A program made the translations under genes and the position numbers. Positions 23,106 through 55,572 of a DNA stretch of 64,000 nt are shown piece after piece. Each line of letters begins with the position of its first letter. Position 1 is the stretch's first letter. The notes below the pieces were generated by a model. That model did not search any database and was not told where the DNA came from. It was given only the letters and a program-made list of their open reading frames with translations. Origin of the DNA: Malaciobacter mytili LMG 24559 (lineage in GTDB: Bacteria > Campylobacterota > Campylobacteria > Campylobacterales > Arcobacteraceae); assembly GCF_003346775.1 (NCBI RefSeq), contig NZ_CP031219.1:1054001-1118000 (forward strand), written 5' to 3'.

Positions 23106-23125
23106 ATCCTAAGATTTACTCTTTT
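23100..23125. terminator. bidirectional terminator between the small secreted protein and selB
   Basis: Perfect inverted repeat GAGTAAATC (23100-23108) and GATTTACTC (23113-23121), followed by TTTT, spanning the stop codon of the + gene and the end of selB. Confidence 0.75.
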
Positions 23126-24951
23126 AAAAATACTCTTTTATTATCTATTTTTTTTATTTGAGAAAAGTTATCTAAATAGTCTAGATATGTAATTAAGTAT
23201 TTTCTACTTAAAGGATATTTATCTTTGAAGTTGTTAATATCAATATATCCATCTTCTTTTATAATCTCTTTCATTTGTTTTACTACTTTTGAAAGGCTAT
23301 TTGCATGGATAAATAAATTATGTTGAAGTCTTATAACTTGTTTTTTAGAACATAAAGATTTTAAGATATTATCTCCTAGTTTTCTATCAATATCTAAATC
23401 ATCATAGATATTATATGGAGCAGTTGGAGCTAAATCTTCTTCTTCTAATCTTTTTGAAATTATATCTTCTAAGTTTTTAGCAAAATCCTCTTTTATATTT
23501 GCATTTCTATAAAGATTTTTATCTTTAATTAAAAAGTTTTCTTTTTCAAGTTCATCTAAAACAGTTTGAATAAAGGCTGTACTTGCCCATTTTATTCTAA
23601 GTTTTATTGCTGCATTTGAAAGTAGGGCATAGCTATTTTTTGTATAGATTTGTTTAATTTGTTCTTTTATATACTCTTTTGTAAATATAGGATAAATAAC
23701 TAACTCTTTTTCATCACAAAATACTTCTTCTAAGTTTTTACCAAAGTTTATAGCTTCATCATGGCTTAAGGCAAATCTTTGAGCTGAAGAGATAAGCCCT
23801 AATCCTTTTTTATGTGCTTGAAGTAAAATATTATAAGCTTCTTTAATATTCTTTTCATATAAAGCATTTAAAAGTAGTTTTTTTTGTGATTTTTTCATTG
23901 GGTCATTAACTGAATTTAAGATAATACCCCCTGCAATTGTATCATTTGCTTCTCTTAAAATAATTTTTTCTTTATATATGCAAAAAAACTCTTCTTTAGC
24001 TTTTATAGTAGCAAAACCCTCTTCTAAAGTAGTAGTTGAATCAAAAAGTAAAACTTTTACTTCTACTTTTTTAGAACCTATAAATAGTGAATAAACTCTA
24101 TTATGATGAAGTTCTTTTCCTTTTAGACACTTAAAACTAATATCTAAAGTATCAAACCCCCTTAAAAAGCCTTTTTTAGAGATTAAATCACCTCTTTGTA
24201 ATTCAGTAGCTTTTATATTTTGAAGATTAAGAGCTGCTCTATTTGAAATATTTGCTTCAAGGGCATTTTGGTTGTGTACTTGAATATTTTTTATTTTAGT
24301 CTCTTTTTGTAAATGGGGAATAAAAACTTTTTCATCTAAGCTTATTTGATTTCCTAATACAGTTCCTGTTACAACTGTACCTATACCTTTTACTGAAAAA
24401 ACTCTATCCACATAATATCTAAAAAAGTTTTCTTGAGGTTTTGAAGAACTTTTTAAAGTAAAAAGTTTGTCTTTTAAATTTTCAATTGATTTTTCCTCAT
24501 AAATAGAAACACAACAAATAAACTTTATATCAAACTCAAACTCTTTTAAAAATTTTTCAATAGTCTCTTTTTGAAGTTCTAACTGTTCTTTTGAAACTAA
24601 ATCTTTTTTAGTAAGTACAACTACTATTTCTTTAATTCCTAAAAGATTAATAATTTCTATATGTTCAACTGTTTGAGGCATTATTCCTTCAGTTGCCGCA
24701 ACTACAAGCATAACACAATCAAAAGAAAAAGCCCCTGCAATCATATTTTTTACAAGTTTTTCATGGCCTGGAACATCAATAAAAGCAATATTTTGTTGAG
24801 CTTTTTTTAAATTTGAAAAAGATAAATCAATAGTTATTCCTCTTTGTTTTTCCTCTTTTGTTTCATCCCCTTCATAACCATTTAAAGCTTTAATTAAAGA
24901 AGTTTTTCCATGGTCAATATGTCCTGCTGTACCTATAATAATGTTACTCAT
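23116..24951 (-). CDS. selB: selenocysteine-specific elongation factor SelB
   Basis: 611 residues. The GTPase domain has GHIDHGKTSL (G1), the RGITIDL switch I, DVPGHEKL (G3) and TKKD (G4). EF-Tu-like barrels follow, then the C-terminal winged-helix repeats that bind the SECIS hairpin in the mRNA. SelB carries Sec-tRNA to the ribosome at in-frame UGA codons. Its clients in this window are SelD and two FdhA proteins. It begins in an ATGA overlap with the selA stop, so the order selA-selB is one transcription unit. Length and motif spacing are normal. Confidence 0.95.
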   Translation of the reverse strand: MSNIIIGTAGHIDHGKTSLIKALNGYEGDETKEEKQRGITIDLSFSNLKKAQQNIAFIDVPGHEKLVKNMIAGAFSFDCVMLVVAATEGIMPQTVEHIEIINLLGIKEIVVVLTKKDLVSKEQLELQKETIEKFLKEFEFDIKFICCVSIYEEKSIENLKDKLFTLKSSSKPQENFFRYYVDRVFSVKGIGTVVTGTVLGNQISLDEKVFIPHLQKETKIKNIQVHNQNALEANISNRAALNLQNIKATELQRGDLISKKGFLRGFDTLDISFKCLKGKELHHNRVYSLFIGSKKVEVKVLLFDSTTTLEEGFATIKAKEEFFCIYKEKIILREANDTIAGGIILNSVNDPMKKSQKKLLLNALYEKNIKEAYNILLQAHKKGLGLISSAQRFALSHDEAINFGKNLEEVFCDEKELVIYPIFTKEYIKEQIKQIYTKNSYALLSNAAIKLRIKWASTAFIQTVLDELEKENFLIKDKNLYRNANIKEDFAKNLEDIISKRLEEEDLAPTAPYNIYDDLDIDRKLGDNILKSLCSKKQVIRLQHNLFIHANSLSKVVKQMKEIIKEDGYIDINNFKDKYPLSRKYLITYLDYLDNFSQIKKIDNKRVFLKE

Positions 24952-26294
24952 TTAAAAACCTCAGTTAGTATATTTATAAGTTCTTGTATCTCTTCTTCTT
25001 GAATACTTCTAAAATCTAAAAGCACTTTTTCATTTTCTATTCTTGAAATTATATTTCTTTGTCTTAAAAGCTTTTCTATTTTATTTGGTTTAAAATCTTT
25101 GTACTTTAAACTTAAAGCAATAGTTGGGATTTTTTTATTTGGAGTTGTTCCTCCTCCAATTAAAGTTGAACTTTGTAGAACTTCGCAAGTACAAACTTTA
25201 TCTAAAGACTCTTTTACTTTTAAAGCTCTTTCTTCTAAAGTTTTAATTGAAGTGTGAAGCATCTTAAGTGTTGGTATTTCATCAAGCTCATTTTTTAAAT
25301 ATAAATTTAAATGCTCTTCTAATAAACATAAAGTTAGTTTATCCACTCTTAACATTCTTAAAAGTTGATTTTTTTTGATTTTTTCAATTAACTCTTTTTT
25401 ACCTATTATAATCCCAGCTTGTACACTTCCTAAAAGTTTATCTCCTGAAAAACTCAATAGTGAAGGGTTATATTGCATATATTTTAAAATTGAAGGCTCT
25501 TTTTCATCTAAACCAAAAGGAAGGTCTATCATATGTCCACTTCCCATATCAAAATAATCAATTACATTGTTTTTTTGTGCAACTTCTATTATATCTTTTA
25601 AATCAACTTCACTTGTAAAACCTTCAATAGAATAGTTTGATTTATGTACTTTCATTAAAATAGAAGTATTTTCATTTATAGCGTTTTCATAATCTTTTTT
25701 ATGAGTTTTATTTGTAGTACCTATCTCTTTTAGTATTGCTCCACTTTGAGTCATCACTTCAGGAACTCTAAAACTTCCACCAATTTCTACAAGTTCTCCT
25801 CTACTTACAACTGCTTGTTTATTTTTTGCAAAAGTATTAAGCACTAAAAATACTGCACTTGCATTATTATTTACTACTATTGCATCTTCACAACCAGTTA
25901 AACTTTGTAGAGTTTTTACTATATGAGAGTATCTTTCACCTCTTTTTCCTTCTTCAAGATTGTATTCTAAATTATTATAAGAACTTGCTATTTCTTTAGC
26001 TTTTTCAAAACTTTTTTTAGAAATAAGACTTCTTCCTAAATTTGTATGAACAATAATCCCAGTTGCATTTATAACTTTTTGAAGTGAAGGTTTGATTATT
26101 TGATTATAGGCTTTTAAAGTTTTATTTATAAGCTCTTCTTGACAAAAAGAATCAATCTTTTTATTTAAAATATCTTCTCTTAATTTAGTGATTTCTTCTT
26201 TTGCAACTTTTGTAATAAGCTTTGAAGAACAACTCTCAAAAGTTTTGTGTTTGATAAACTTATCAACTTTTGGGATTGATTTTAGTAAATCCAT
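24948..26294 (-). CDS. selA: L-seryl-tRNA(Sec) selenium transferase SelA
   Basis: 448 residues. A PLP enzyme of the fold-type I class that converts seryl-tRNA-Sec to selenocysteinyl-tRNA-Sec using selenophosphate from SelD. Recognised by INATGIIVHTNLGRSL near the N-terminus, GCEDAIVVNNNASAV, and the PLP-lysine motif SFSGDKLLGSVQAGII. The gene is divergent from tRNA-Sec, only 55 bp away, so the operon and its tRNA share an intergenic promoter region. The AAGGGTAAAG upstream is a good ribosome binding site. Nothing unusual in length. Confidence 0.95.
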   Translation of the reverse strand: MDLLKSIPKVDKFIKHKTFESCSSKLITKVAKEEITKLREDILNKKIDSFCQEELINKTLKAYNQIIKPSLQKVINATGIIVHTNLGRSLISKKSFEKAKEIASSYNNLEYNLEEGKRGERYSHIVKTLQSLTGCEDAIVVNNNASAVFLVLNTFAKNKQAVVSRGELVEIGGSFRVPEVMTQSGAILKEIGTTNKTHKKDYENAINENTSILMKVHKSNYSIEGFTSEVDLKDIIEVAQKNNVIDYFDMGSGHMIDLPFGLDEKEPSILKYMQYNPSLLSFSGDKLLGSVQAGIIIGKKELIEKIKKNQLLRMLRVDKLTLCLLEEHLNLYLKNELDEIPTLKMLHTSIKTLEERALKVKESLDKVCTCEVLQSSTLIGGGTTPNKKIPTIALSLKYKDFKPNKIEKLLRQRNIISRIENEKVLLDFRSIQEEEIQELINILTEVFK

Positions 26295-26349
26295 CTTTAC
26301 CCTTTTAGATTATTTTAAATTTATATATTGTAAAATTACTTACTTGTTT

Positions 26350-26447
26350 GGGAGGTATGTGATCCTGGTGGACGCCACGGGCTTCAACCCCGATGTCTGG
26401 CTTTGTGTAAAGTTGGAGGTAGGTTCGATTCCTACACCTTCTCGCCA
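26350..26447 (+). tRNA. selC: tRNA-Sec (anticodon TCA)
   Basis: About 98 nt, including an encoded CCA. The anticodon TCA is at 26384-26386 in the loop CTTCAAC closed by CGGG/CCCG. The extended variable arm pairs CTGGCTTT with AAAGTTGG (8 pairs counting G-U) around GTGT, a tRNA-Sec hallmark. The T arm is GTAGG-TTCGATT-CCTAC. The acceptor pairs GGGAGGT with ACCTTCT including two G-U pairs; the outermost position before discriminator G would be a mismatch, so the 5' end could be one base off. It lies between selA and other genes on the opposite strand to selA. Confidence 0.92.
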
Positions 26448-26609
26448 AACTTGAATTCTACTCATAAATTTCTTATTTATTATGATTATATCTTATCCCA
26501 AATAGAAAAAAGCTTAATATAGGTAAAAAATTTTTTACTAATTTTAATATGGAATAAAGATTTTTAATATATTTATTTTATTATAATTTTATAAAAATTA
26601 GGAGCTTTT

Positions 26610-27164
26610 TTGATTATAATTAGAATACTTTTGACTTCTTCTTTATTTTTATTAGTTTATGTACTATATGATGTGATAAGTATATTCAACTCTTTTTCTT
26701 ATTCAATTACAAATAGTTTTGCAACTAATAAAATAAATTTATATTTTTATGCTTTACTTGCTATTTTTGTAGTGGTAGAAGTAATAAAATTCTTTAATAC
26801 TGATAAAAGACAAACTTTTTTAATGCATTATGATTATTATATTAAAATCCTTAATTTCGCACTTTTATTACTTTGTTTATTTGTAATACAACAAAATATT
26901 GTATTAGATTCCATAAAGAGTTTAAAAATAACAGAAGATAATATAAATAAAAAAATTGAAATAATAAAAAGAGAACAAAATAGACTCTTTGAAAGTCAAT
27001 TAAATAATAAAAATGCTGAACTTGAGATTTTAAGAACTTTAGTTTTACAAAAAAAACAATTAGTTAAATTTCAAGAAATTAATATTAATTTTTTAAAAAA
27101 TGAAATTAAAACTATTGAAAATTTTAAAATAGCTTTAGAAAATAAAGTATTAGAGAAAAAATAG
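26610..27164 (+). CDS. membrane protein with C-terminal coiled coil, unknown function
   Basis: 184 residues from a TTG start preceded by AGGAG at a good distance. It has three membrane helices (about 2-20, 44-62 and 76-97), the third leading into a ~85-residue charged helical tail (INKKIEIIKREQNRLFE..., LRTLVLQKKQ) that should form a cytoplasmic coiled coil. I do not recognise the family. The next gene, an HD-domain protein, starts 14 bp downstream, so they are probably cotranscribed. The tail could serve as a scaffold or oligomerisation rod. No catalytic motif is visible. Confidence 0.6.
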   Translation: MIIIRILLTSSLFLLVYVLYDVISIFNSFSYSITNSFATNKINLYFYALLAIFVVVEVIKFFNTDKRQTFLMHYDYYIKILNFALLLLCLFVIQQNIVLDSIKSLKITEDNINKKIEIIKREQNRLFESQLNNKNAELEILRTLVLQKKQLVKFQEININFLKNEIKTIENFKIALENKVLEKK

Positions 27165-27177
27165 TTATAATTATTAA

Positions 27178-27657
27178 ATGAAAAAATCAAGAATTTTTAG
27201 AAAAACCTTTTTTATAACTCTTTTTATAAAGCAAAATAAATGGCATTATTATGGAGTTTTAGCCCATACTTTAGCTTTGGTTTTTCATTTAGTTAAAAAT
27301 AGACAATTTAAGATGATAGGTGCAGGATTTTTACATGATATTGCAAAACCTATTATTGCTTTTCAAGATGATGAAGATAAAAAGACAAATCAATACTCTT
27401 TTCATAACCATGAAGAACTTTCTTTTTTTATAGTTAGAAATTGGCCAATATCTTTATATACAAAAAACTTAGTTAGATACCATTATATAATAAGAGGCAT
27501 GCAAAAAGCTAAAGAAAGAAATCAAATAAATAAGTATAAAAGAATGAAAAGGTCATATGAAAAATTAGATAAAGATTTTATCATAGATTTAAAAATTTTT
27601 ATGAAGTATGATGATTTGGCAAAGAAAAGTATTTTTAAAAGTGCTAAGAATTCTTAG
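27178..27657 (+). CDS. HD-domain hydrolase-like protein
   Basis: 159 residues. The HD motif is clear: an upstream histidine in YGVLAHTLALVFHL and the His-Asp pair in GAGFLHDIAKPII, with further candidate metal ligands in FHNHEE and RYHYIIRG. HD domains hydrolyse phosphate esters, often of nucleotides; the substrate here is unknown. The C-terminal third is very basic (KERNQINKYKRMKRSYEK), which could mean nucleic acid or membrane contact. It is short for the family and has no partner domain. It follows the coiled-coil membrane protein by 14 bp and ends in a perfect terminator shared with selD. Confidence 0.75.
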   Translation: MKKSRIFRKTFFITLFIKQNKWHYYGVLAHTLALVFHLVKNRQFKMIGAGFLHDIAKPIIAFQDDEDKKTNQYSFHNHEELSFFIVRNWPISLYTKNLVRYHYIIRGMQKAKERNQINKYKRMKRSYEKLDKDFIIDLKIFMKYDDLAKKSIFKSAKNS

Positions 27658-27664
27658 CACTTTT
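27637..27664. terminator. bidirectional terminator between the HD gene and selD
   Basis: A perfect 28-bp palindrome (arms AAAAGTGCTAAGAA and TTCTTAGCACTTTT, no loop bases) spans both stop codons. Confidence 0.85.
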
Positions 27665-28700
27665 AATGAATTATAATATCAGTTGCACCCTTTGGTATAA
27701 CTTCTCCTATAATACTAGCATATCCTAAAGATAAATCTTCTATTTCTTTTATATACTCTTTTGCATCATCTTTATTCATAGAGATTAGTAATCCCCCTGA
27801 AGTTTGTGCATCACAAAGTACAAGTTTACAATAGTTTGCAACACTACTCATAAATGTTACTTTATCTTCTATATATTTTAAGTTCTTTTTAGTTCCACCT
27901 GGAACTACATCTTGTTCTGAAAGTTCAACTACTTCATTTAGTACAGGTACACTTTTACAATCAATACTAAAGGTAACTGTTTTATTTATACACTCTAAAG
28001 CATGACCTAAAAGTCCAAATCCAGTTATATCTGTACAAGCATGAACTCTATATTTTCTCATTATTTTTGATGGAAGATAGTTTAACATTGCCATAATTTC
28101 ACTACACTTTTTCATCATCTCTAAAGGTAATAAATCTCTTTTAATTGCAGTTGTTAAAATACCCATTCCAATAGGTTTTGTAAGAACTAAAACATCACCT
28201 ATTTTTGCAGTGTTATTTCTTATTATTTCATTTGGATGAATCATTCCTGTAACACTTAATCCATAATACATCTCAGGTGATTCAATAGTATGTCCACCCA
28301 ATAGTACACCACCACACTCTTTAATTTTTTCATTTCCACCATTTAATATTTCACCTAAAGCTTCAGTAGAAATATTTTTTCTATCAAAACCTACTATATT
28401 TAGGGCAGTTTTTACTTCTGCCCCCATAGCAAATACATCACTTAAAGAATTAGCAGCAGCAATTTGTCCATAAATATATGGGTCATCAACAACAGGTGTA
28501 ATAAAATCAAGTGTTTGAACTATTGCTTGTGTTTCATTTATTTGATAAACACTAGCATCTTCACTTGTATCGAATCCCACTAAGACTCTGCTATCATTTG
28601 GCGTTAAATTGCAAATTGTTTGTTTAAGGTCTCCCGGACCCATTTTTGCAGCTCAACCAGCAGCTCTTACGAATTTCGTTAATTTATATTCGTTGTTCAT
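27663..28700 (-). CDS. selD: selenide, water dikinase SelD, a selenoprotein
   Basis: Makes selenophosphate, the selenium donor for SelA, from selenide and ATP. The true start is the ATG at 28700, preceded by AAGGGGAAAG, giving NNEYKLTKFVRAAG, then TGA (28655-28653) as residue 16, then AAKMGPGDLKQ. In this family that position is Cys or Sec and the following lysine is catalytic. So the TGA is read as selenocysteine and the full protein is 345 residues. A SECIS-like hairpin follows the TGA. ATP-binding and dimer motifs include GFDTSEDASVY, GGHTIESPE and TDITGFGLLGH. Predictors that stop at TGA would lose the first 19 residues. Confidence 0.95.
28628..28640 (-). promoter_or_regulatory. SECIS element of selD
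   Basis: On the coding strand GGTC-CGGGA-GACC forms a hairpin 12 nt after the selD TGA, with a G-rich apical loop as in bacterial SECIS elements. Confidence 0.75.
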
Positions 28701-30363: not shown

Positions 30364-30627
30364 ATGAAATTTTTTTTAATACTTTTTATTTTTGCAGTTT
30401 CTTTATTTTCCAAAGAAGTAGTTATTGAAGTAAAACAGATGCATTGTCCTTTATGTACATCTATGGTTAAAAAAGCTATAAAAAATGTAGAGGGTGTAAC
30501 AAAGGTAAAAGTTAAACTTCAAGATAAAAAAGCAGTAATAAATTTTGATGAGAGTAAAACTAATATAGCAACAATTTTAGAAGCTATAAAAACAACTTCT
30601 TATGTGGGAGAAGTAGTTAAACCTTAG
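30364..30627 (+). CDS. MerP-like periplasmic heavy-metal-binding protein
   Basis: 87 residues: a signal peptide (KFFLILFIFAVSLFS) and one HMA domain with the metal-binding C28-PL-C31 in QMHCPLCTSMVKKAI, then GVTKVKVKLQDKKAVI. The fold and size are those of MerP/CopZ. It would bind a soft metal ion in the periplasm and hand it to the MerT-like protein encoded just before. It ends in a terminator shared with the convergent response regulator gene. Confidence 0.8.
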   Translation: MKFFLILFIFAVSLFSKEVVIEVKQMHCPLCTSMVKKAIKNVEGVTKVKVKLQDKKAVINFDESKTNIATILEAIKTTSYVGEVVKP

Positions 30628-30640
30628 ATTTCATCTAAGG
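30622..30640. terminator. bidirectional terminator between the MerP-like gene and the response regulator gene
   Basis: Perfect repeat CCTTAGAT-TTC-ATCTAAGG spans both stop codons. Confidence 0.75.
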
Positions 30641-31295
30641 CTTGGTCATTAAATCTATAAGTTTTATGTTGGATTTTTATTAATATATTTTTATTTGATA
30701 AATCCTTAAAAAGTTTAATCAATGTTGGTTTTGATATATTTATTTTTTCCATAATTTCACTATATGAAGCTGAAAAATTATTGTTATTATCTAAATTATT
30801 TATAATATATTTTATTACATCAACTTGCTTACTATCTGTAATTGCTGAAATTGTTTTTATTACACTATTATTTCTAGTTATCTCTTTTTGTTGTACTATT
30901 GGCAATAAAATATCATGAAGAGTTGATAATAACTCTTTTATATTTATTGGCTTAATAATATAATTTTCAACTTTTAATTTTATTGCATCTAATAAATATT
31001 TTGTATCAGTGTGAGCTGTTGTTAAAATAGTTGGTATATGTATATGTTTTGTCTCTTTTAAATATTTTAAAAAATCAATTCCATTTTCATTTTCAAGTAA
31101 AATATCAGAAATAATCACATCTATTTTTTTTGTTTTTAATATTTCTAAAGCCTCTTTAGAAGTTTTAACAGCGTAGATATTATTTACAAAGTCTTCTAAT
31201 ACATCATGAGTATGTTTTAATAAATTTACATCATCTTCAAGATATAAAATATTAAATTTATTTAGTATATTTAGGTCTTTATTCTGCATTTTCAA
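30624..31295 (-). CDS. response regulator with unusual C-terminal helix-turn-helix
   Basis: 223 residues. The REC domain has YLEDDVN acidic residues, the phosphoacceptor aspartate in VIISDILL, the threonine in TILTTAH and lysine in IIKPINI. The C-terminus is not the usual OmpR or NarL type: a short winged helix (YSEIMEKINISKPTLIKLFKDL, then ILIKIQHKTYRF) resembles MarR/IclR-like DNA-binding heads. It overlaps the kinase gene by 17 bp. With the kinase and binding protein upstream it forms a three-gene signalling operon, divergent from the formate dehydrogenase region. The target genes are unknown; the FDH operon is a candidate. Confidence 0.85.
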   Translation of the reverse strand: MKMQNKDLNILNKFNILYLEDDVNLLKHTHDVLEDFVNNIYAVKTSKEALEILKTKKIDVIISDILLENENGIDFLKYLKETKHIHIPTILTTAHTDTKYLLDAIKLKVENYIIKPINIKELLSTLHDILLPIVQQKEITRNNSVIKTISAITDSKQVDVIKYIINNLDNNNNFSASYSEIMEKINISKPTLIKLFKDLSNKNILIKIQHKTYRFNDQALDEI

Positions 31296-32874
31296 TCTCT
31301 TTTTTTAATATTGGAATTTTAATAATAAAAAGACTACAAGGGTAGTTATTCTCTTTATCTATTTTATGAATAATATTTTTTTGATAAATTGAGCCATACA
31401 TATGTTTTTCTATAATTTGTTTTGACATATAAAGCCCAATACCAGTTCCTGCACTTTTATATTTAGTTGTGTAGTACGGTTCAAAAATTTTAGGAGCAAT
31501 ATCTTTGGGAATTCCTCCTCCATTATCAATAAAATTAATAATAACATCATCTTTGTATTGCTTTACTATAACCTTTATAATTCTAGCATTTTTATTTACA
31601 TTAGAACATAAAGCATCTTTTGAATTATTTATTAGGTTTAAAAATACATGAGAAAGTTCATTATAATAGCTATTTATCAAAATATCTTTTTTTACACGAA
31701 TATTATATTTTATACTCTCTTTTTCTAAAGCATATTTTGATAATTCAAATGAGTGTTCTATACACTCTTTTATATTAAAGATTTTTTTTGTTTTATCAGG
31801 TGAAAAAAAGTTTTTAAAATCATCTAAAGTATTAGACATATTTTCAGCTAAGAATAGGGCATCATTTACTTTTTCATTTATAAATTCATCAGTAAGTTTT
31901 CCTAAAAGCATTTTTGTTTGAAAACTTTGTACAATCATTGTAATTGATCCCAAAGGTTGTCTCCATTGGTGTGCAATATTATTTAACATCTCTCCTAAAC
32001 TTGCTAGTCTTGCTTGTTGGAACATAATAATATCTTTTTTCCTATTGTTTTTAACTTCTTGCACAACTCTTTTTTCTAAAGAATTATTTAGTTCAACTAA
32101 CTCTTTTGTTTTTGCTTCTACTTTAATCTCAAGAATATTATGAAGTCTTTTAAAATGGTTTATTAATAAAACAGATAAAATAATAGAAAAAAGAAAAATT
32201 AATACAATAGAAATCATTGAAACAGCAATAATTACATCAAAAACTCTTTCTGTATCTCTTTTTTCATTTAAAGCTAAAGTTAAATCATAGTTGATTAAGC
32301 TTGTTATATAAATATTAATTGCATTTATTTCTAAATGTAATTTACTAAATTCTTCAGATAAATTATTATTATGATTTGCAATTTCAAGATTATGAAGTTT
32401 TGCATTAATATTTATCATTTTTTTATCAATATTTTCTGAAATACTTTTATGTAAAGTTTCATTTTTATAAAATTGTTGTTGAGTAACTAAAAATTTTTTA
32501 ATAATATTTCCAAGATATATAGTAGGTTGTTTAATAGTAAAATTTGAACGCTTATACTCTTTCCAGTTAGTCTCTATTAATTGTAAGGCTAAATTAATTA
32601 CTTCTGTTGCTTGAGTATATGTTATTTGTCTATTTTCAATATCATATAAAGTATCTTGAATATTTACAGTATAGGTATCTTTAATATTTTCAAGTTTAAT
32701 TAAAGGTTTTGTTCTTTGTTCATATAATTTATCAAAATCATATTTTATAGAAAAAGTTGAAATTAGTGATAAGATAACAATACTAAGCATACCATTAGAA
32801 ATAATAAAAATTAAGAAGTTTGTTTTTAATGCAAAATTAAATTTATCAAAGTATGAAAGAAAAGTTCGTAACAT
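31279..32874 (-). CDS. sensor histidine kinase with four-helix periplasmic domain
   Basis: 531 residues. TM1 is about 16-41 and TM2 about 213-236, separated by an all-helical periplasmic domain of about 170 residues. A short linker coiled coil precedes the kinase core: H-box LASLGEMLNNIAHQWRQPLG with the phospho-histidine, N-box HVFLNLINNSKDAL, G1 NFIDNGGGIP, F/G2 YYTTKYKSAGTGIGLYMSK. The AHQWRQPL form is common in Campylobacterota kinases. The binding-protein gene ends where this one begins (1-bp overlap), so the periplasmic domain may read the loaded binding protein rather than a free ligand, as in TorS/TorT-type systems. Confidence 0.88.
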   Translation of the reverse strand: MLRTFLSYFDKFNFALKTNFLIFIISNGMLSIVILSLISTFSIKYDFDKLYEQRTKPLIKLENIKDTYTVNIQDTLYDIENRQITYTQATEVINLALQLIETNWKEYKRSNFTIKQPTIYLGNIIKKFLVTQQQFYKNETLHKSISENIDKKMININAKLHNLEIANHNNNLSEEFSKLHLEINAINIYITSLINYDLTLALNEKRDTERVFDVIIAVSMISIVLIFLFSIILSVLLINHFKRLHNILEIKVEAKTKELVELNNSLEKRVVQEVKNNRKKDIIMFQQARLASLGEMLNNIAHQWRQPLGSITMIVQSFQTKMLLGKLTDEFINEKVNDALFLAENMSNTLDDFKNFFSPDKTKKIFNIKECIEHSFELSKYALEKESIKYNIRVKKDILINSYYNELSHVFLNLINNSKDALCSNVNKNARIIKVIVKQYKDDVIINFIDNGGGIPKDIAPKIFEPYYTTKYKSAGTGIGLYMSKQIIEKHMYGSIYQKNIIHKIDKENNYPCSLFIIKIPILKKEIENAE

Positions 32875-34013
32875 TATCTTTTTATCTCTTTAAACATATT
32901 ATTTTCATATGTAAATAAATACACAGTATTTAAAAATTGTCTATTCTTAAATTCAATATTTAAACCTTCTAAAGTATTTTTAGGAAGTTTTTCTAACTCT
33001 TTTAAAAACTTTTCTCTAGTTAAAGAACCATTTACATTTTTTAAAGCATTTACAACCAATTTTGCAGAAAGATATGCTTCTAAAGAAATAAATCCAGGTT
33101 TAAAGTTTTTATAATATTTATTTGTTATTTCATAATATTCTTTAATAACAGGAATTGAAGTATCTTGATAGTTTGGAACAACTTGTGAAAAAATAAGATT
33201 TTTAGTATCTTCTCCTAATTCATCAATCATAGCATTTGCATCACCAAATGAAATATTACAAAATAAAGTATCTTTAAATTTAGAATTTTCTTTAGCTTTT
33301 TTTATAAATAAAGCATTTGCTTTATTTGCTCCTATCATTATAATTGCTTCTGGTTTAGCATTTTTAATTTCATTAAAAGCATGACTAATTGAAAGAGTAT
33401 TTCTTTTATAACTTCCTTCTGCAATTAGTTTTAATTTTCTTTTTTCCAAAGATTTAATTACAGAAACATACCCTTCTTCTCCATAATCATCATTTTGATA
33501 AAAAACTGCAAATTTTGATATTTTTTTATTATAATGTAAATATTTTATAAGTTCTTCAATCTCTTCTTCATAAGAACTTCGTAAATTTATAAAGTTTTTT
33601 TGTTCTTCTTTTCTTAAAAAATTAGCTCCTGTAAAAGCTGAAATAAAAGGTATATCTTTTTCTACAATCAATGGTAAAATATTTTTAACTGTGGGAGTAC
33701 CAACAAATCCAAAAAGTGCAAATACATTATCTTGATTAAGTAATTTTTTTGTATTCTCTTTTGTTAATTTAGGCTCATATTTATCATCATATAAAATATA
33801 ATGTATCTTTTTATCTTTAAGTAGTTTATTATCATTTGCATAATTAAAATAAGAATTTGCGCCTGTACTTACAGCTTCTCCCCACTCTTTAATTACGCTA
33901 GTTTTAGGAATAGAACCACCAAGTAAAATCTCCTTAGTTGTGTATTCCTTATCTTTAAAAAGAAGGTAAAATAATATTAAAATAGATATGATAACTAATA
34001 GTATTCTTGTCAT
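32874..34013 (-). CDS. periplasmic ligand-binding protein (branched-chain amino acid receptor type)
   Basis: 379 residues with an uncleaved-looking or signal-anchor N-terminal helix ([17 protein letters not shown]). The fold is the Leu/Ile/Val-binding type (Peripla_BP_6): KEILLGGSIPKTSVIKEWGE, FALFGFVGTPTVKNILPLI and FAVFYQNDDYGEEGY are typical. There are no ABC transporter permease or ATPase genes nearby. Instead it is joined to a histidine kinase gene with a 1-bp overlap, so it is more likely a sensory subunit than a transporter part. The ligand cannot be told. Confidence 0.85.
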   Translation of the reverse strand: MTRILLVIISILILFYLLFKDKEYTTKEILLGGSIPKTSVIKEWGEAVSTGANSYFNYANDNKLLKDKKIHYILYDDKYEPKLTKENTKKLLNQDNVFALFGFVGTPTVKNILPLIVEKDIPFISAFTGANFLRKEEQKNFINLRSSYEEEIEELIKYLHYNKKISKFAVFYQNDDYGEEGYVSVIKSLEKRKLKLIAEGSYKRNTLSISHAFNEIKNAKPEAIIMIGANKANALFIKKAKENSKFKDTLFCNISFGDANAMIDELGEDTKNLIFSQVVPNYQDTSIPVIKEYYEITNKYYKNFKPGFISLEAYLSAKLVVNALKNVNGSLTREKFLKELEKLPKNTLEGLNIEFKNRQFLNTVYLFTYENNMFKEIKR

Positions 34014-36574: not shown

Positions 36575-36586
36575 CATTTTTTTTAT

Positions 36587-36617
36587 CCACTAATATGCTT
36601 TTTTTGCATATTAGTGG
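36587..36617 (+). terminator. hairpin after torD-like gene, containing palindrome copy 1
   Basis: Perfect 12-bp arms CCACTAATATGC (36587-36598) and GCATATTAGTGG (36606-36617) around seven T. It can act as a terminator or attenuator. Its core 36592-36612 is also AATATGC-N7-GCATATT, the same 21-bp motif as at 36635, 41457 and 47232. Confidence 0.65.
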
Positions 36618-36634
36618 AGTTTTATTTATTTAGA

Positions 36635-36655
36635 AATATGCAAATTTTGCATATT
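36635..36655. promoter_or_regulatory. 21-bp palindrome, copy 2 (candidate ModE-like operator)
   Basis: AATATGCAAA-T-TTTGCATATT is a perfect 10-1-10 palindrome, 82 bp before the small Tat protein gene and 43 bp (centre to centre) from copy 1, close to four helical turns. The regulator is inferred from the ModE-like gene at 48459. Confidence 0.55.
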
Positions 36656-36737
36656 AAAAGAGATAAGTGAGAAAAGTATTTCTTTTTTGAGTTATCTCTT
36701 TTTGGGTAAAAGAGAGAAATATAGCTTGGAGGAAAGC

Positions 36738-36938
36738 ATGAAAGAAAATAGAAGGAGTTTTATTAAAAAAACTCTAAGTGCAAGTGCTTTGGTTGCAGCA
36801 GGTAGTAGCGTTGCTTTAGCAAGTAGCAATACTAAAAATAGTAGTTCAAGTGGTGTTGTTGTAGGAAAATCTCCTAAAAAAGAGATTTTATACAAAGAGA
36901 CAAAAGAATGGGAAGCTTTTTATAAAGCAAGTTATTAA
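36738..36938 (+). CDS. small Tat-signal protein of formate dehydrogenase region (1)
   Basis: 66 residues from the ATG at 36738, which follows GGAGGAAAG; longer upstream readings have no such site. It has a Tat signal (NRRSFIKKTLSASALVAAGSSVALA) and a short conserved mature part with SSGVVVGKSPKKEILYKETKEWE. This is the 'formate dehydrogenase region Tat target' family, always next to fdhA. The mature part is too small for an enzyme; a structural or maturation role is likely. The second copy is at 42622. It is 12 bp before fdhA1. Confidence 0.85.
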   Translation: MKENRRSFIKKTLSASALVAAGSSVALASSNTKNSSSSGVVVGKSPKKEILYKETKEWEAFYKASY

Positions 36939-36950
36939 AAGGTAAAAAAA

Positions 36951-39791
36951 ATGGGTAAAAATATACTCAATGATTTATCTTTGAAAATGGGTAGAAGAAA
37001 TTTTCTTAAATTAGCTTCACTTGGTGCAGGAGTAGGTGCAACTTCAATGTTTGCTTCTACAAATACCCTAAGAGAAGCTACAAATGATGAGATTAAAAAT
37101 CCTTTTCCTGGTTCAAAGAAAGTTAAAACAATTTGTAGTATTTGTTCTGCTGGATGTGGAATAGTTGCTGAGGTTCATAATGGTGTTTGGGTAAGACAAG
37201 ATGTGGCACAAGACCATCCTATTAGTGAAGGAAGTCATTGTTGTAAAGGTATTGACCAAATTGATTTAGTAAAAAGTAAACAAAGAGTTAAATTTCCACT
37301 AAAAAAAGTTGCTGGTAAATGGCAAAGAATTTCTTGGGAAAAAGCAATTAGTGAAATTTCTGAAAAAATGTTAAAACTAAGAGAAGAAAATGGTCCTGAT
37401 GTGGCGATGTTTTTAGGTTCAGCAAAATTTAACCTTCAACAAGCTTTTTATTTTAGAAAATTTGCAGCAATGTGGGGTACAAACAATATAGATCACGTAG
37501 CAAGAATTTGACATAGCGCAACAGTTGCCGGGGTGGCAAATACATGGGGTTATGGTGCTATGACAAATCATTTTGGTGATGTTGTTGGACACTCAAAAGC
37601 AATTTTAATGATAGGTGCTAATTCAGCTGTGGCAAATCCAATTGGGTTTAAGCATTTCCTTCAAGCTAAAGATAGAAATAATGCTAAACTAATTGTAGTT
37701 GATCCAGTTTATACAAAATCTGCTGCTAAAGCAGACCATTATTTAAGAATTAGAACAGGTACAGATGTAGCATTTATTTATGGATTATTACATATTATAT
37801 TTAAAAATGGTTGGGAAGATAAAGAGTTTATTGATAGCCGTGTATATGGTATGGATGAGATTAGAGAAGAAGCAAAAAAATGGACACCTGAGGAGACGCA
37901 AAATGTTACAGGTATTCCAGCGGAGAAGATTATCCAATTAGCTACACTTTTAGCTAAAACTAAACCAACTACAGTTGTTTGGGCACTTGGTATTACTCAA
38001 CATAGTACAGGTACTTCAAATACAAGAATTCTTCCAATACTTCAATTAGTATTAGGAAATATGGGTAAAAAAGGTGGTGGAACAAATATTATTAGAGGAC
38101 ATGATAATGTTCAAGGTTCTACTGATATGTGTTGTTTAGCTGATAGTTTATCTGGATATTATGGATTAGGTGAAGCTTCTTGGAGATATTATGCAAAAGC
38201 TTGGGGTGTAGATTTTGATTGGTTACAAAAAAGATTTCACTCTCCTAAATGGATGCATGAAAAAGGTTTCTCACTTGCAAAATGGTGGCAAGGAGTATTA
38301 CAAGAAGAAAAAACTTATTCTTCAAGTCCTATTAGAGCTTTATGGGTTCAAGGTACAGGTATTACTTCTATGGCACAAACTGCAAAAGTTCAAGAAGCTT
38401 TAGATAAATTAGATTTATTAGTTGTTGCAGAACCTTTTGTAAATGAAGCAGCAGTAATTACAAGTAAAACTGATAATATTTATATTTTACCAGTGTGTAC
38501 ACAGTTTGAAACAGAAGGAAGTGTAACTGCTACAAATAGATCTTCTCAATGGAGAAGTAAAGTAGTAGATCCTTTATATGAAAGTAAAACTGACCATGAT
38601 GTAATGTTTGAATTTGCTAAAAAATTTGGTTTTTATGATGAATATGTAAAAGCTATGAAAATGGATATTGTTGATGGTGAACCAAAAGTAGTAAAAGATA
38701 GTTTTATTTGGCCAGATGATGCAGCTAATGAGTTAGCAAGAACAATTAAAACAATTGGTCTTGGTGGATGGACAGCAAAAAGATTAAGAGAACACCAAGA
38801 AAATTGGCATTTATTTGATCCTTTAACTTTAAAAGGTTCTGGAAAAATGAAAGGTCAGTATTATGGTTTACCTTGGCCTTGTTGGGATACAAAACACCCA
38901 GGAAGTCCTATTTTATATGATGTAACAACACCTGTTAGTAAAGGCGGTATGGGATTTAGAAATAGATTTGGTTTAGAACATGAGGGTGTTTCTCAATTAC
39001 CTGATGAAAGAGTAACAGTTAAAGGTTCAAAAATCAAAGGTGGATACCCTGAAATTACAAAAGATAATATTGAAAAAGTTTTAGGTATTACTTTAACAAA
39101 AGAAGAAAAAATAAAAATTGGAGCAAATTGGAAAGTAGATTTTAGTGGAATTATTCAAGAAAAGTGTAATGAAGCTGAAGTTTGTGTGTATGGAAATGCA
39201 AAAGCAAGAGCAAAAGTTTGGACATTCCCAGACCCAATTCCAAAACATAGAGAACCAATTCACTCTCCAAGACATGATTTAGTTCAAAAATATCCAACTT
39301 ATGAGGATCAAAAAAATAACTTTAGGGTTGATGTAAGATTTAAATCAGAGCAAACAGCTCAAGATTGGTCAAAAGAGTTCCCTACAATGCTAGTTACTAT
39401 GAGAGTTGTAAACTTAAGTGGGGCTGGTATGTTAGAAAGAACAAGTAAGTACCTTTCTCATATTACTCCTGAAATGTTTGCTAATATCAATCCTGAATTA
39501 GCTGCTGATTATGGAATAAGAAATGGGGATATGATGTGGTTACATTCACCACAAGGAACAAAAATTAAAGTAAAAGCTATTTATAGTCATAGTGTTACGC
39601 CAGATAGAATTTGTTTACCATATAACTTTGCAGGAGTGATGCAAGGTGTGGATATGAGTGCTAATTATCCAGAGGGAACAAAACCTTATACAATAGGTGA
39701 AAGCTCAAATACTATTACAAATTATGGCTTTGATATTATTACACAAATTCCAGAATTCAATGCTGGTTTATGTAAAATTGAAAGAGCATAG
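36951..39791 (+). CDS. fdhA: formate dehydrogenase alpha subunit, selenocysteine-containing (1)
   Basis: 946 residues with an internal TGA (37509-37511) read as Sec187. Tat signal GRRNFLKLASLGAG; then the [4Fe-4S] motif CSICSAGCGIVAEVHNG..CCKG, then NNIDHVARI-U-HSATVAG, where the Sec is the Mo/W ligand, and the bis-MGD-binding domains (MIGANSAVANPIG, NVQGSTDMC). It oxidises formate to CO2 in the periplasm and passes electrons to FdhB and FdhC. A SECIS hairpin follows the TGA. The frame continues unbroken after TGA, so a frameshift or pseudogene is excluded. The paralogue is at 42844. Length is normal for FdhA/FdnG. Confidence 0.96.
37525..37539 (+). promoter_or_regulatory. SECIS element of fdhA1
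   Basis: TTGCC-GGGGT-GGCAA hairpin begins 14 nt after the TGA. The fdhA2 element has the same stem and the loop GGTGT. Confidence 0.8.
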
Positions 39792-41352: not shown

Positions 41353-41781
41353 CTTCAAAATTTTAAAAAATTTCAAAAAATTTCAAAATTTGTTAAAAAT
41401 TGATTTAAATCAAGAAAATAAAGGATAAAGATTATTAAATAATAAATTAGTATTTAAATATGCAAAAATTGCATATTTTTGAAATTGTGGAATTTAGGGA
41501 GTATCTAAAAAAGTAAAAATAACAAAAAAAAAACAGCTAAAAAAAGTAAAAAAAAATTAACAAAAAAATATGTTCCTATTTTTTACATTATTAAATTATA
41601 AATAGGCATAAAGTACCTATATAAAGTTATAGACTAAGTTTTCTTTAAAGTTAGTAGCTTTAAAATTAGTAAATAATAATTGACCAAAAATAAAAAATAG
41701 ATATTGAATATGGTAAAAAATATGACAATTTTTATCCTATTTAACTCTATATAATAATTTTATTTTTGTTAAGGATAAAAA
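41353..41781. other. 429-bp noncoding region between the two FDH units
   Basis: Very AT-rich, with no credible gene on either strand. Near its left end it has short repeats of the kind AAAAAATTTC. It contains palindrome copy 3 (41457-41477), a weaker repeat ATAGG-N9-CCTAT (41600-41618), and near its right end promoter-like TATAATAAT. The 300 bp between the palindrome and the chaperone gene is long for this compact genome; a long leader or small RNA is possible, but I see no clear structure. Confidence 0.6.
41457..41477. promoter_or_regulatory. 21-bp palindrome, copy 3 (candidate ModE-like operator)
   Basis: AATATGC-AAAAATT-GCATATT, same length and arms as copies 1 and 2; 305 bp before the second chaperone gene. 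Confidence 0.5.
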
Positions 41782-42547: not shown

Positions 42548-42593
42548 AAAGAGGCCAAAAAAGAGTAAGTTGTTACTTTTTTTTGGTCTCTTT
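42548..42593 (+). other. long RNA hairpin between torD-like gene 2 and the small Tat gene
   Basis: Arms of 21 nt (42548-42568 and 42573-42593) around the loop GTTG pair along their whole length; the two DNA mismatches become G-U pairs in RNA. There is no T-run after the hairpin, so it is not an ordinary terminator. It may be an RNase III site, a transcript-stability element or a partial terminator. Confidence 0.6.
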
Positions 42594-42621
42594 GAGACTG
42601 AAAAAACAATAAGGATCAACT

Positions 42622-47221: not shown

Positions 47222-47231
47222 TTATAATAGA

Positions 47232-47252
47232 AATATGCATTAATAACATATT
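47232..47252. promoter_or_regulatory. 21-bp palindrome, copy 4, degenerate (candidate ModE-like operator)
   Basis: AATATGC-ATTAATA-ACATATT, same length and outer six bases as the other three copies, 14 bp before the fdhD start. It lies ahead of the operon that encodes the ModE-like protein, so autoregulation is possible. Confidence 0.5.
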
Positions 47253-47265
47253 AAAGAGTGATACA

Positions 47266-48054
47266 ATGAGTAATGAAAAATATTTAAAAAAAGTTATAAT
47301 TGATAAAATTTCAGGAAATGAAGCTATTGAATTTGATGATGTTACTATTGATGAGTCAAGGTTAAATCTATATTTAAATGGACAAAAAGCTATTTCAATG
47401 ATGTGTATTCCAAAAGATCAAGATGCACATGCAATTGGTTTTTTAATGAGCGAAAATGTAATCTCAAATATTGATGATATAGAAACACTTACTGTTAGTG
47501 AAGAGGGTTTAAGAGTTGATATAAAAGCAAAAATAAATGAAGCTTCTTTAGAAAACTTATATAAAGAAAAAACACTTGTAAGTGGTTGTGGTGGTGGAGT
47601 TACTGGAAATGTAGAAGGTAGTGTAGAAATACCTTTTAATCAAACTTCATTTCAAGTAAAACCTGAAACAATTTCAACAGAAGTAAAAAAGTTTTATGAA
47701 GAGAGTGAATTATATAAATTAACAGGCTGTGTTCATAAAGCAATGATATATTTACTTGATGGAACAACAGTTACAGCAGAAGATATAGGTAGACACAATG
47801 CTATTGATAAAGTTGTTGGTAAATGTAAGCTTAATAGGCTTGATACAACAAAATCAGTTTTATTTGTTAGTGGTAGATTATCTTCAGAAATGGTTACAAA
47901 AGCAGTTATGCATAAAATCCCTATTGTAGTTTCAAGAACAGCACCAACTTATCTTGGCGTACAAACCGCACAAAAACATGGGGTAACTTTAATTGGATTT
48001 GCCCGAGGTAAAAAAATGAATTTATATACTCATCAAGGAAGAATAGATGTCTAG
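47266..48054 (+). CDS. fdhD: FdhD sulfurtransferase-like protein for formate dehydrogenase activation
   Basis: 262 residues. FdhD transfers sulfur from a cysteine desulfurase to the MGD cofactor before insertion in FdhA. Recognised by AIGFLMSENVI, the cysteine loop LVSGCGGGVTG (C108), GCVHKAMIYLLDG, AEDIGRHNAIDKVVG and LFVSGRLSSEM. In E. coli FdhD the loop has two cysteines (C-x-x-C); here only C108 remains. It starts a cotranscribed series that includes a cysteine-desulfurase-like gene, a plausible sulfur donor. It overlaps the next gene by 8 bp. Confidence 0.92.
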   Translation: MSNEKYLKKVIIDKISGNEAIEFDDVTIDESRLNLYLNGQKAISMMCIPKDQDAHAIGFLMSENVISNIDDIETLTVSEEGLRVDIKAKINEASLENLYKEKTLVSGCGGGVTGNVEGSVEIPFNQTSFQVKPETISTEVKKFYEESELYKLTGCVHKAMIYLLDGTTVTAEDIGRHNAIDKVVGKCKLNRLDTTKSVLFVSGRLSSEMVTKAVMHKIPIVVSRTAPTYLGVQTAQKHGVTLIGFARGKKMNLYTHQGRIDV

Positions 48055-48475
48055 TATTGATGATAATTTAAATATTAAACTAGATAATATTCAAAAAGAA
48101 TTAATTTTAACAAATTTGGATGAAGATGGAAAACTATCTTGTTTAAAGGCCTTTAAAGTTGCAAGACTTATAGGTAAAAAACCAAATGAAATGTCAGCTA
48201 TTACAAAAAGTTTAGGTATTAAAATTACAAATTGTGAACTAGGTGTATTTGGAAAAATTAAATTTCAAGACCCTAATATAGAAGTGTACAATAGACTAAA
48301 ACAAAATTATATGGGACATAAACAGCTTGAGTGTAAAGTTTTATGGGATGAAGCTCAAAATTCAACTTTAAGAACCGTTGGTTCTACTGTAAAAAATTCT
48401 GATATTGAAGTAACTCATTGTCAATTAGGATGTTTTAGAGAAAGAAAAGGACATAAAGATGCAAGTAAAAGTTAA
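48047..48475 (+). CDS. internally repeated protein of unknown function in the molybdenum operon
   Basis: 142 residues made of two related halves: about 27-71 (LSCLKAFKVARLIGK ... IKITNCELGVFGK) and about 86-134 (LECKVLWDEAQNSTL ... IEVTHCQLGCFRER). Each half has a cysteine early and an I-x-(I/V)-T-x-C-x-L-G-x-F end motif. The spacing of the conserved cysteines could bind a metal or cluster across the halves. The helical part of repeat 1 (KVARLIGKKPNEMSAITKSLGI) looks like a helix-turn-helix. I do not recognise the family. It overlaps fdhD by 8 bp and the ModE-like gene by 17 bp, so it is tightly coupled to both. It may be a metal-sensing partner of the ModE-like domain. Confidence 0.65.
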   Translation: MSSIDDNLNIKLDNIQKELILTNLDEDGKLSCLKAFKVARLIGKKPNEMSAITKSLGIKITNCELGVFGKIKFQDPNIEVYNRLKQNYMGHKQLECKVLWDEAQNSTLRTVGSTVKNSDIEVTHCQLGCFRERKGHKDASKS

Positions 48476-48830
48476 AATTTGGATAGAAGATGACGAACAA
48501 AATTTAATCTTTGGTAGTGGTAAAACTGAAGTTTTAGAATATATTGATAGAACAGGTTCTATTGCTGATGCTGCAAAAGAAGTTGGTATGAATTATAAAA
48601 AAGCTTGGAATCATATAAAAATTTTAGAAAAATTTGTTGAAGATGATTTAGTAATAACTTTTAAAGGTAGAGGGGAAAATAGTGGAACATCATTAACTCC
48701 TAAAGCTAGAGAAGTAATTCAAACATATAAAATTTTACAGCACGATATTAAAAAATATTCAGAAGATAGATTTAAAGAATTATTTCAAAAAAATGGACAA
48801 GAAATTTTAAGTCCAAAGGAGAATAAATAG
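48459..48830 (+). CDS. modE: ModE-like transcriptional regulator (DNA-binding domain only)
   Basis: 123 residues. A winged helix of the ModE N-terminal type: YIDRTGSIADAAKEVGMNYKKAWNHIKILEK, then GRGENSGTSLTPKAREVIQTYK. The molybdate-binding TOBE/MOP domains of E. coli ModE are absent, as in other short ModE-like proteins of this phylum. It must therefore sense metal through another protein or regulate without direct binding. It overlaps the upstream repeat protein gene by 17 bp. The four AATATGC palindromes in front of the FDH and fdhD units are candidate binding sites. Confidence 0.8.
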   Translation: MQVKVKIWIEDDEQNLIFGSGKTEVLEYIDRTGSIADAAKEVGMNYKKAWNHIKILEKFVEDDLVITFKGRGENSGTSLTPKAREVIQTYKILQHDIKKYSEDRFKELFQKNGQEILSPKENK

Positions 48831-49810
48831 TGTACAAATTAAATTTTTTACTATATCCTAATGTGCAAAATTATCATATTACTAAAGAAAGTTCTCTTAA
48901 TATTTTAGATGATAATGACACTTTCAATAGACTAAAAAAAGAGTTTTTATTTAAATACAAATTTGAAAATTTAAAAACTATTGATTTTTCAAAATGGGGA
49001 ATTTTAGGCCTTTTTTTAGAACTAAAAGGAGAAATTGCAGTAAGTTTAGGTGAGAGTCAAGCAATTATTGATGCAGCACTTGAGTATGAAAAGCTGGGAT
49101 TTAATATTACTTGGCTTACTTTAAATAAACAAGGAACTGTAAATTTAGATAATTTAAAGTTAAAAAAATTTGACTATATTTTTATCTCTTCATATGTAAT
49201 GGATACTTTTGTAAAGATAAATTTAGAAGAAATAAAAAGTATAAGTAATGCAAAAATAGTTTCTAATGCAAGTGCTCATTTTGATAAAACAAGTGATATT
49301 GTTATTTTTGATTGCTATAAAATTTGTGGATATACAAGTTGTGCAATTATTTTATATAACAATGAATTTCAAGAGCAAAATTTAGCAAATATCGATGCTC
49401 TTGCTATTTATTTATGCTTTGAAAACTTAAAAACTCAAAACTTTAATACTTCAAATAAAAAACTATTTATTGAACAATTAAAGAAAAATTTTAAAGAGGA
49501 TTTATATTTCTTTGTGGATACGCAAGAAACATTACCTTATACACTTCATTTTGGTTTAAAGAATATAAAAGCAAGAGAGATGATAAGAACTTTAGCTTTA
49601 TCAAATATTTTTATTACAAATGGTGAGGGATGCTCTTTAGGTTTATCAAGACCTTCAAGAGTTATTCAAGCTATGGGGTATGATGAGCTAACAAGTAGAA
49701 ATGCAATTTCTTTATCTTTTTGTGAAGAGTATTCTTTAGAAGAAATTGAAAAAATTGCTAAATTTTTCTATAAAAAGTATAAACAAATAAGGCTACTAAA
49801 TGAACAATAA
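48830..49810 (+). CDS. divergent cysteine desulfurase-like (class V aminotransferase fold) protein
   Basis: 326 residues from a GTG start with AAAGGAG upstream; shorter than NifS/IscS (about 400). The first ~60 residues of the usual fold are reworked. Family traits that remain: the PLP-lysine region IVIFDCYKICGYTSCAIIL, and the mobile cysteine loop with NGEGCSLGLSRPSRVIQAMGY followed by AISLSF. The PLP-binding histidine before the lysine is replaced by tyrosine. It may still give sulfur to FdhD, or be an altered enzyme for selenium or molybdopterin sulfuration. It overlaps moeA by 11 bp. Confidence 0.7.
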   Translation: MYKLNFLLYPNVQNYHITKESSLNILDDNDTFNRLKKEFLFKYKFENLKTIDFSKWGILGLFLELKGEIAVSLGESQAIIDAALEYEKLGFNITWLTLNKQGTVNLDNLKLKKFDYIFISSYVMDTFVKINLEEIKSISNAKIVSNASAHFDKTSDIVIFDCYKICGYTSCAIILYNNEFQEQNLANIDALAIYLCFENLKTQNFNTSNKKLFIEQLKKNFKEDLYFFVDTQETLPYTLHFGLKNIKAREMIRTLALSNIFITNGEGCSLGLSRPSRVIQAMGYDELTSRNAISLSFCEEYSLEEIEKIAKFFYKKYKQIRLLNEQ

Positions 49811-51067: not shown

Positions 51068-51889
51068 ATGAAATTAAATAGATTTTCAATGCTTTTAGCA
51101 TCACTTTCAATGGTAGTTTCTGCAAATTTATTTGCAGATGATTTAATGATGGCAACAACAACAAGTACGGATAATACAGGGTTATTAGACTATTTAGCTC
51201 CAAAATATAAACAAGATACTGGTAATACTTTAAAATGGGTTGCAACAGGTACTGGAAAAGCGCTTAAAATGGGACAAAATTGTGATGTTGATATTTTATT
51301 TGTACATGCACCAGCTTCTGAGAAAAAATTTGTTGAAGCAGGGTATGGAGAAAATAGAAAACAAGTAATGTACAATGATTTTATTATTGTTGGACCAAAA
51401 TCAGATCCAGCAAAAGTTACTGGTATGACACCAGCACAAGCTTTAACTAAAATTAAAAATGATAAAGCAAACTTTTTTAGTAGAGGGGATAACTCTGGAA
51501 CTAATAAAAAAGAGATTAGTTTATGGAAAACTGCACTTTCTGCAACACCTGATAAAGAGTCTTGGTATGTACAAACAGGGCAAGGTATGTTAAGAACAAT
51601 TAATATGTCAGCAGAAAAAAATGGATATACAATGACTGATAGAGGAACTTGGATTAAGTATGTTTCTCAAAAAGGTGAAGACAATAGTATGAAAATCGTA
51701 GTAGAAGGTGATAAATCTTTATTTAACCAATATAGTGTAATTACTATTAATAAAGATAAATGTTCAAATGTAAATACAACAGCTGCAACTTCATTTACAA
51801 ATTGGATAGTAAAAGAGGAAAATCAAAAATTTATTGCTGATTTTAAATTATTAGGTAAAGCATTATTTGTTCCTAACGCAGATAAATAA
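51068..51889 (+). CDS. tupA: tungstate ABC transporter substrate-binding protein TupA
   Basis: 273 residues with signal peptide RFSMLLASLSMVVSANLFA. Typical TupA: MATTTSTDNTGLLDYL at the mature N-terminus (oxyanion-binding TTTS), CDVDILFVHAPASEKKFV, YNDFIIVGP, SRGDNSGTNKKE. TupA binds tungstate with high selectivity over molybdate in related bacteria. Followed by tupB and tupC. Tungstate uptake is consistent with formate dehydrogenase being a W enzyme in close relatives. Confidence 0.93.
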   Translation: MKLNRFSMLLASLSMVVSANLFADDLMMATTTSTDNTGLLDYLAPKYKQDTGNTLKWVATGTGKALKMGQNCDVDILFVHAPASEKKFVEAGYGENRKQVMYNDFIIVGPKSDPAKVTGMTPAQALTKIKNDKANFFSRGDNSGTNKKEISLWKTALSATPDKESWYVQTGQGMLRTINMSAEKNGYTMTDRGTWIKYVSQKGEDNSMKIVVEGDKSLFNQYSVITINKDKCSNVNTTAATSFTNWIVKEENQKFIADFKLLGKALFVPNADK

Positions 51890-51913
51890 AAAGGTTTAAG
51901 GTAAAAAAATAGG

Positions 51914-55571: not shown

Positions 55572-55572
55572 G

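Follow-up and report, generated by a model that had tools for sequence, protein, structure and literature searches.

The two 21-bp palindromes that precede the formate dehydrogenase unit fdhA1 of Malaciobacter mytili LMG 24559 are, judging from sequence comparisons, very probably operators of a ModE-family molybdenum/tungsten (Mo/W) regulator encoded in the same gene cluster (probability about 0.86). The analysed DNA, referred to here as the window, comprises 64,000 nucleotides, and all positions are given within it. In the proposed mechanism, a ModE dimer, with the HTH subunit encoded at 48459-48830 and hyp142 as its likely sensor, would bind AATATGC-N7-GCATATT and adjust transcription of fdhA1, fdhA2 and fdhD-modE to the supply of Mo/W. 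Operator 1 would sit inside the terminator that closes the 4Fe4S-torD1 operon upstream, and operator 2 at the point where a new transcript of the fdhA1 unit should begin, directly before a leader RNA, with the T-rich stretch between them likely serving the promoter. The 150 bp between torD1 and tatS1 would end one operon, host the regulator and start the next.

The site at fdhD, which lies 8-20 bp upstream of the start codon in most genomes, suggests autorepression of the fdhD-hyp142-modE operon. Deletion of modE in Campylobacter jejuni abolishes formate dehydrogenase activity although ModE is known as a repressor (PMC11237541), a result that suggests activation, or a further role, at fdhA1 and fdhA2.

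Proposed operator copies and target genes

A pattern search of the 3.04-Mb genome finds AATATGC-N7-GCATATT exactly three times, at 36592, 36635 and 41457, where 0.04 matches are expected from zero- or first-order composition; the reversed control pattern has no exact match in the same whole-genome search. A single one-mismatch copy exists genome-wide, at 47232, and all four copies fall in the fdh-mod-tup cluster within a span of 10.7 kb. Copy 1 (36592-36612, AATATGCTTTTTTTGCATATT, exact) forms the core of a terminator hairpin, and copy 2 (36635-36655, AATATGCAAATTTTGCATATT, exact) is followed directly by the leader RNA. Copy 3 (41457-41477, exact) lies 325 nt upstream of torD2 in the fdhA2 unit. 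Copy 4 (47232-47252, AATATGCATTAATAACATATT, one mismatch) lies 13 bp upstream of fdhD (47266-48054, plus strand), with TATAAT at 47223-47228 just upstream of it. No strand is assigned to any of these palindromic copies.

Background begins at two mismatches. Places with at most two mismatches number 57 genome-wide for the motif and 6 for the reversed control, which is biased at this level by the CG dinucleotides it contains. Two-mismatch places are therefore not counted as sites, except for a degenerate fifth operator at 48860-48880 (no strand assigned), 30 bp into the aminotransferase gene after modE, a position where other genera and relatives carry exact copies. The initial annotation had placed two palindromes before the fdhA1 unit and further copies at 41457 and 47232; all are present, exact except for the mismatch at 47232, and the regulon it drew from them gains strong support from the genome search, with its three exact sites, and from the family searches. 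A scatter of many copies at unrelated genes, which would argue against such a regulon, was looked for genome-wide and in relatives and did not occur.

Across relatives, the target that recurs most constantly is the fdhD-hyp142-modE operon. Further sites stand upstream of tatS1-fdhA1 and torD2-fdhA2, in the aminotransferase/moeA region, upstream of modA at a locus away from the fdh cluster (L105), between tupA and tupBC (L124, L125, L134-L136), and upstream of FDH-like molybdopterin oxidoreductases and aldehyde oxidoreductases. Sites before such genes are found in Sulfurospirillum- and Campylobacter concisus-type genomes as well. Because the sites precede mod, tup and other molybdoenzyme genes, they mark the regulon as one of molybdenum/tungsten and not of formate.

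The proposed ModE-like regulator and its candidate sensor

The candidate binder, modE (48459-48830, plus strand), encodes a ModE-type HTH protein of 123 amino acids. It has no metal-binding domain: Pfam finds only HTH_1, and since the C-terminal molybdate-binding (TOBE/Mop) domains are absent, the protein is called ModE-like rather than a full ModE. Its N-terminal winged HTH is of the ModE type. The match to TIGR00637, the ModE DNA-binding domain, reaches E=7e-20 at 70.9 bits, under the cut-off of 98.5, and a profile comparison matches the fused orthologue to the ModE crystal structures 1b9m/1o7l at 6e-8.

Co-occurrence ties this protein to the motif. Among 104 Arcobacteraceae genomes, 48 contain the exact motif and none the reversed control; an HTH-only ModE-like protein (E below 1e-20) is present in 50. 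The motif is found in 43/50 genomes with the protein and 5/54 without it (Fisher p=4e-16); in the largest genus the corresponding counts are 10/10 and 0/21. All five genomes with the motif and without the protein carry their copy inside an ORF, so these copies represent expected background. Seven modE-bearing Arcobacteraceae genomes have no exact copy; five of them carry a one-mismatch copy at fdhD or an fdh promoter, and in the other two (G086, G096) no site with at most one mismatch was found at the fdh cluster. Outside the family, the motif occurs in 55/124 genomes with modE and 15/231 without (p=6e-17), an association carried by Sulfurospirillum-type and C. concisus-type genomes. The jejuni-type Campylobacter genus has modE, and the exact motif appears in none of its genomes searched; degenerate operator copies stand at the tup promoters of three jejuni-type species.

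All these counts come from related genomes and are not independent events. Genomes without modE appear often to lack the whole fdh cluster, modE having probably been lost together with it, and for this reason co-occurrence alone does not separate modE from the other cluster genes. As sequence evidence for ModE itself, co-occurrence can be taken as strong, though not independent. Together with the target genes across three families, it supports the ModE-like HTH protein as the likely binder of AATATGC-N7-GCATATT, the role that the initial annotation had given it.

Two other proteins have to be weighed as binders. The neighbouring locus at 30624-34013, divergent from the fdh genes and conserved beside fdh clusters in relatives, encodes a trio made up of a periplasmic binding protein, a histidine kinase and a response regulator. 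The C-terminal part of the response regulator is RepL-like and probably binds DNA, and many Arcobacteraceae and some Sulfurospirillum-type genomes have the trio next to their fdh clusters. That it, rather than ModE, binds the sites is nevertheless very unlikely: the sites also precede Mo/W genes, namely modA away from fdh (L105), tupA/tupBC and aldehyde oxidoreductases, and C. concisus-type loci with sites (L134-L136) have modE and no trio within 20 kb. The constancy of fdhD-hyp142-modE as a target is, moreover, what ModE autoregulation predicts. A full-length ModE-type paralogue of about 260 amino acids, encoded elsewhere in the window's own genome, belongs to the ModE family as well. It is present in most Arcobacteraceae with or without the motif, so its distribution does not follow the motif, and its candidacy is highly improbable.

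The gene hyp142 (48047-48475, plus strand) encodes a separate protein homologous to the N-terminal domain that ModE carries in Campylobacter and Sulfurospirillum. It has two Cys motifs and is the candidate sensor subunit. Sulfurospirillum- and Campylobacter-type genomes encode the ModE HTH as a fusion, with a double Cys-motif domain (CELGxFG, CELGCF) on its N-terminal side; in a C. jejuni strain (L231) the fused protein measures 242 amino acids. In Arcobacteraceae, C32, C63, C96 and C125 of hyp142 are invariant. The gene fusion, the conserved Cys residues and the lack of any other sensing domain make the hyp142 domain the likely Mo/W sensor. It matches no Pfam or NCBIfam model significantly. 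Its predicted structure is helical and appears to consist of two modules, for which Foldseek and VIA-align searches give no convincing match, only short three-helix homeodomain matches with Z about 5; this is no evidence of a new fold. The family has stand-alone second copies at L199, L206, L209, L214-L216 and L218. Beside the L214 copy lies a large gene for an MMPL-family transporter, and ORFs of similar size flank several other copies.

The hyp142 and modE genes overlap by 17 nt in another frame, an arrangement that is nearly constant, with the +1 frame in 43/46. Inspection of the overlap by eye reveals no apparent slippery site, which disfavours a programmed frameshift joining the two proteins. 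Translational coupling is preferred.

Comparison with known systems places the regulator beside three ModE types. The E. coli ModE regulon shares the ModE-type winged HTH, an inverted-repeat operator, and control of molybdate uptake and molybdoenzyme genes. The E. coli operator consensus is ATCGNTATATA-N6-TATATANCGAT (cited in PMC545781), whereas the sites here read AATATGC-N7-GCATATT, an unrelated sequence. Unlike E. coli ModE, the protein has no C-terminal molybdate-binding domains and is encoded inside the fdhD operon, and its targets are chiefly genes of formate dehydrogenase and of tungstate uptake. Half-ModE of Desulfovibrio likewise consists of the HTH only, has inverted repeats at genes for Mo transport and has no known sensing partner; its operator, CGGTCACG-N14-CGTGACCG (PMC545781), differs in sequence and spacing. 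In Desulfovibrio a chimeric integrase-type protein with molybdate-binding domains adjoins the transporter, while here a Cys-motif gene overlaps modE.

The ModE-like Cj1507c of C. jejuni (Taveirne et al. 2009, as cited in PMC4139814 and PMC7759655) has an orthologous HTH with about 53% identity and adjoins fdh genes. With an N-terminal Cys-motif domain fused to the HTH, it measures 242 aa, in contrast to the two separate overlapping genes here, and its genus has no exact AATATGC operator, only the degenerate tup-promoter site in three related Campylobacter species. The present sites would give the ModE-like regulator of Campylobacterota, which has no metal-binding domain, a defined operator sequence. 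They come with an indication of what its missing sensing part is likely to be: the double Cys-motif domain, which Campylobacter and Sulfurospirillum carry as a fusion and Arcobacteraceae encode in an overlapping gene. A sensor of the hyp142 type would fit the result of the C. jejuni modE deletion (PMC11237541) and bears directly on that puzzle.

Putative terminator, operator spacing and leader RNA between torD1 and tatS1

Operator 1 begins 17 bp past the torD1 stop and lies in a perfect 13-bp hairpin at 36586-36618 (plus strand, TCCACTAATATGC-T7-GCATATTAGTGGA), which itself starts 11 nt past the stop. The hairpin has a 7-nt loop and a free energy of -19.7 kcal/mol (z -6.7), is the top plus-strand terminator in a scan of the window, and is followed by a T-rich tail at 36619-36631 (GTTTTATTTATTT). 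A stable hairpin followed by a U-tract has the form of an intrinsic terminator, and the region may be read as one.

In relatives, complementary arms extending the core by at least five pairs occur in 7/13 torD1-adjacent copies and 7/176 other sites (p=3e-6). The arms outside the core differ: TCCACT in the window, TATTTA in G080 and G081, other A/T-rich arms in G060 and G068, a 9-bp extension containing CTGTAG in G420, and CTATG in G302. That the arms change yet stay complementary around a fixed core suggests that the hairpin is maintained alongside the operator, and the double use as operator and terminator looks selected. A clear U-tract follows the torD1-adjacent copy in just two cases, the window and its relative G420; termination therefore has good support in these two and less in the others. 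The idea, raised in the initial annotation, that one sequence serves as both RNA terminator and DNA operator agrees with the perfect hairpin in the window and with the arm enrichment in relatives. In one Sulfurospirillum-type genome (L148:4342), a 17-bp hairpin (AGAGACACAAATATGC...) has operator 2 itself as its core, which merges operator and leader hairpin.

The perfect hairpin and its T-rich tail could also be explained if operator 1 were a terminator only, the AATATGC core merely making a good palindrome. This is unlikely: sites with no terminator carry the identical 14 fixed bases, no exact match to the motif turns up elsewhere in the genome, and the arms vary between species around a constant core. 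A different question is whether the two operators depend on their spacing. Their centres are 43 bp apart, or 4.1 turns, close to the four turns for which the initial annotation had called them in phase, and a few relatives have pairs at 42 or 63 bp. The distance holds; the phasing is not supported, since spacing is free in relatives, with pairs at 86, 87, 71, 70, 50, 66, 63, 42, 39, 36 and 33 bp and others. A common helical phase was sought in 25 pairs from relatives and none was found (R=0.19, Rayleigh p=0.43), which rejects helical phasing as a general feature. Close relatives at 86-87 bp, and others at 50 and 66 bp, likewise make it quite unlikely that same-face spacing of 43 bp is needed for looping or cooperative binding.

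The conserved leader RNA of tatS1-fdhA1 (36656-36733, plus strand) begins directly after operator 2. It contains strand 1 (36656-36666), strand 2 (36692-36702) and strand 3 (36708-36719), the last just upstream of the ribosome site at about 36728-36733. Strands 1 and 2 form a long hairpin, and strand 3 repeats part of strand 1 and is an alternative partner of strand 2, so that helices 1:2 and 2:3 are mutually exclusive, as in a riboswitch or attenuator. A second copy with the same layout (42548-42615, plus strand) precedes tatS2-fdhA2, and the layout is conserved in Arcobacteraceae, Sulfurospirillum-type genomes and two further families.

Covariation supports the short helix. RNAalifold, given 35 leaders, chooses helix 2:3 unprompted, with both-side changes in 5/6 pairs. 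In this helix 88% of cells are paired and 19 cells carry double changes, against 6.6 in shuffles, and pairing drops to 39-61% when the strands are slid by 1-3 columns. Among 22 dissimilar leaders, strand 2 pairs with its own strand 3 at a mean of -7.9 kcal/mol and with swapped partners at -5.6 kcal/mol, a difference reached in 0/5000 permutations. The long hairpin 1:2 appears in the single-sequence energy minimum of nearly all leaders; hairpin boundaries come from an anchored finder.

An RNA model of the leader, R1, matches only the two fdh leaders in the window's genome, and a class-wide search gave at least 8/200 positives with 24 candidates scored per genome; the model holds only helix 2:3 and is mostly sequence. 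Rfam finds only tRNA-Sec above the gathering score in the whole window and only weak matches, far below cut-offs, for the leaders alone. The molybdenum cofactor riboswitch RF01055 is also a structured leader before Mo/W-enzyme genes, whereas the leader here sets a long hairpin against a short helix downstream of it; RF01055 gives no sub-threshold match on the leaders and none above the gathering score in the window. With no significant Rfam match, the leader appears to be previously undescribed.

Taken together, these parts could form a two-layer Mo/W switch of new build. Its components would be a split ModE with a separate, previously unannotated Cys-motif sensor, an operator doubling as terminator, and a new cis-regulatory RNA class before tatS-fdhA in which a long hairpin opposes a short covarying helix near the ribosome site. 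This remains a tentative reading, somewhat doubtful as a whole; if true, the leader would add a second level of fdh control. In its strongest version, the leader would sense the tungsten/molybdenum cofactor or selenium status.

Neighbouring genes and further candidate targets

The fdhA1 unit begins with tatS1 (36738-36938, plus strand), which encodes a small twin-arginine-signal protein, followed by the formate dehydrogenase catalytic subunit gene fdhA1 (36951-39791, plus strand). The in-frame UGA at 37509-37511 is presumably read as selenocysteine, given two abutting ORFs and a tRNA-Sec. An in-frame UGA interrupts each of the two fdhA genes, and selA, selB, selD and tRNA-Sec (26350-26443) lie beside the fdh cluster within 23116-28643.

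Downstream, on the plus strand, a tupABC tungstate transporter (51068-53610), for which TupA is the best NCBIfam match, slightly under its cut-off, is followed by a second oxyanion ABC transporter (53626-56343), whose binding protein passes the WtpA (tungstate) cut-off.

In relatives, operators stand 40-103 bp upstream of genes for TonB-dependent receptors and a FecCD permease (L078:6079, L119:5499, L120:5379 and 5446). These are candidate Mo/W (or chelate) uptake genes of the same regulator; the operator list predicts them as new members of the Mo/W uptake gene set. Operator pairs also precede aldehyde oxidoreductase genes in Sulfurospirillum-type L141, L145 and L159, with the gene identified for L141 and L145. 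At L138:6194, an operator lies upstream of a gene whose product is of the FIST-GGDEF-EAL type, which hints at a connection with cyclic di-GMP in this one genome.
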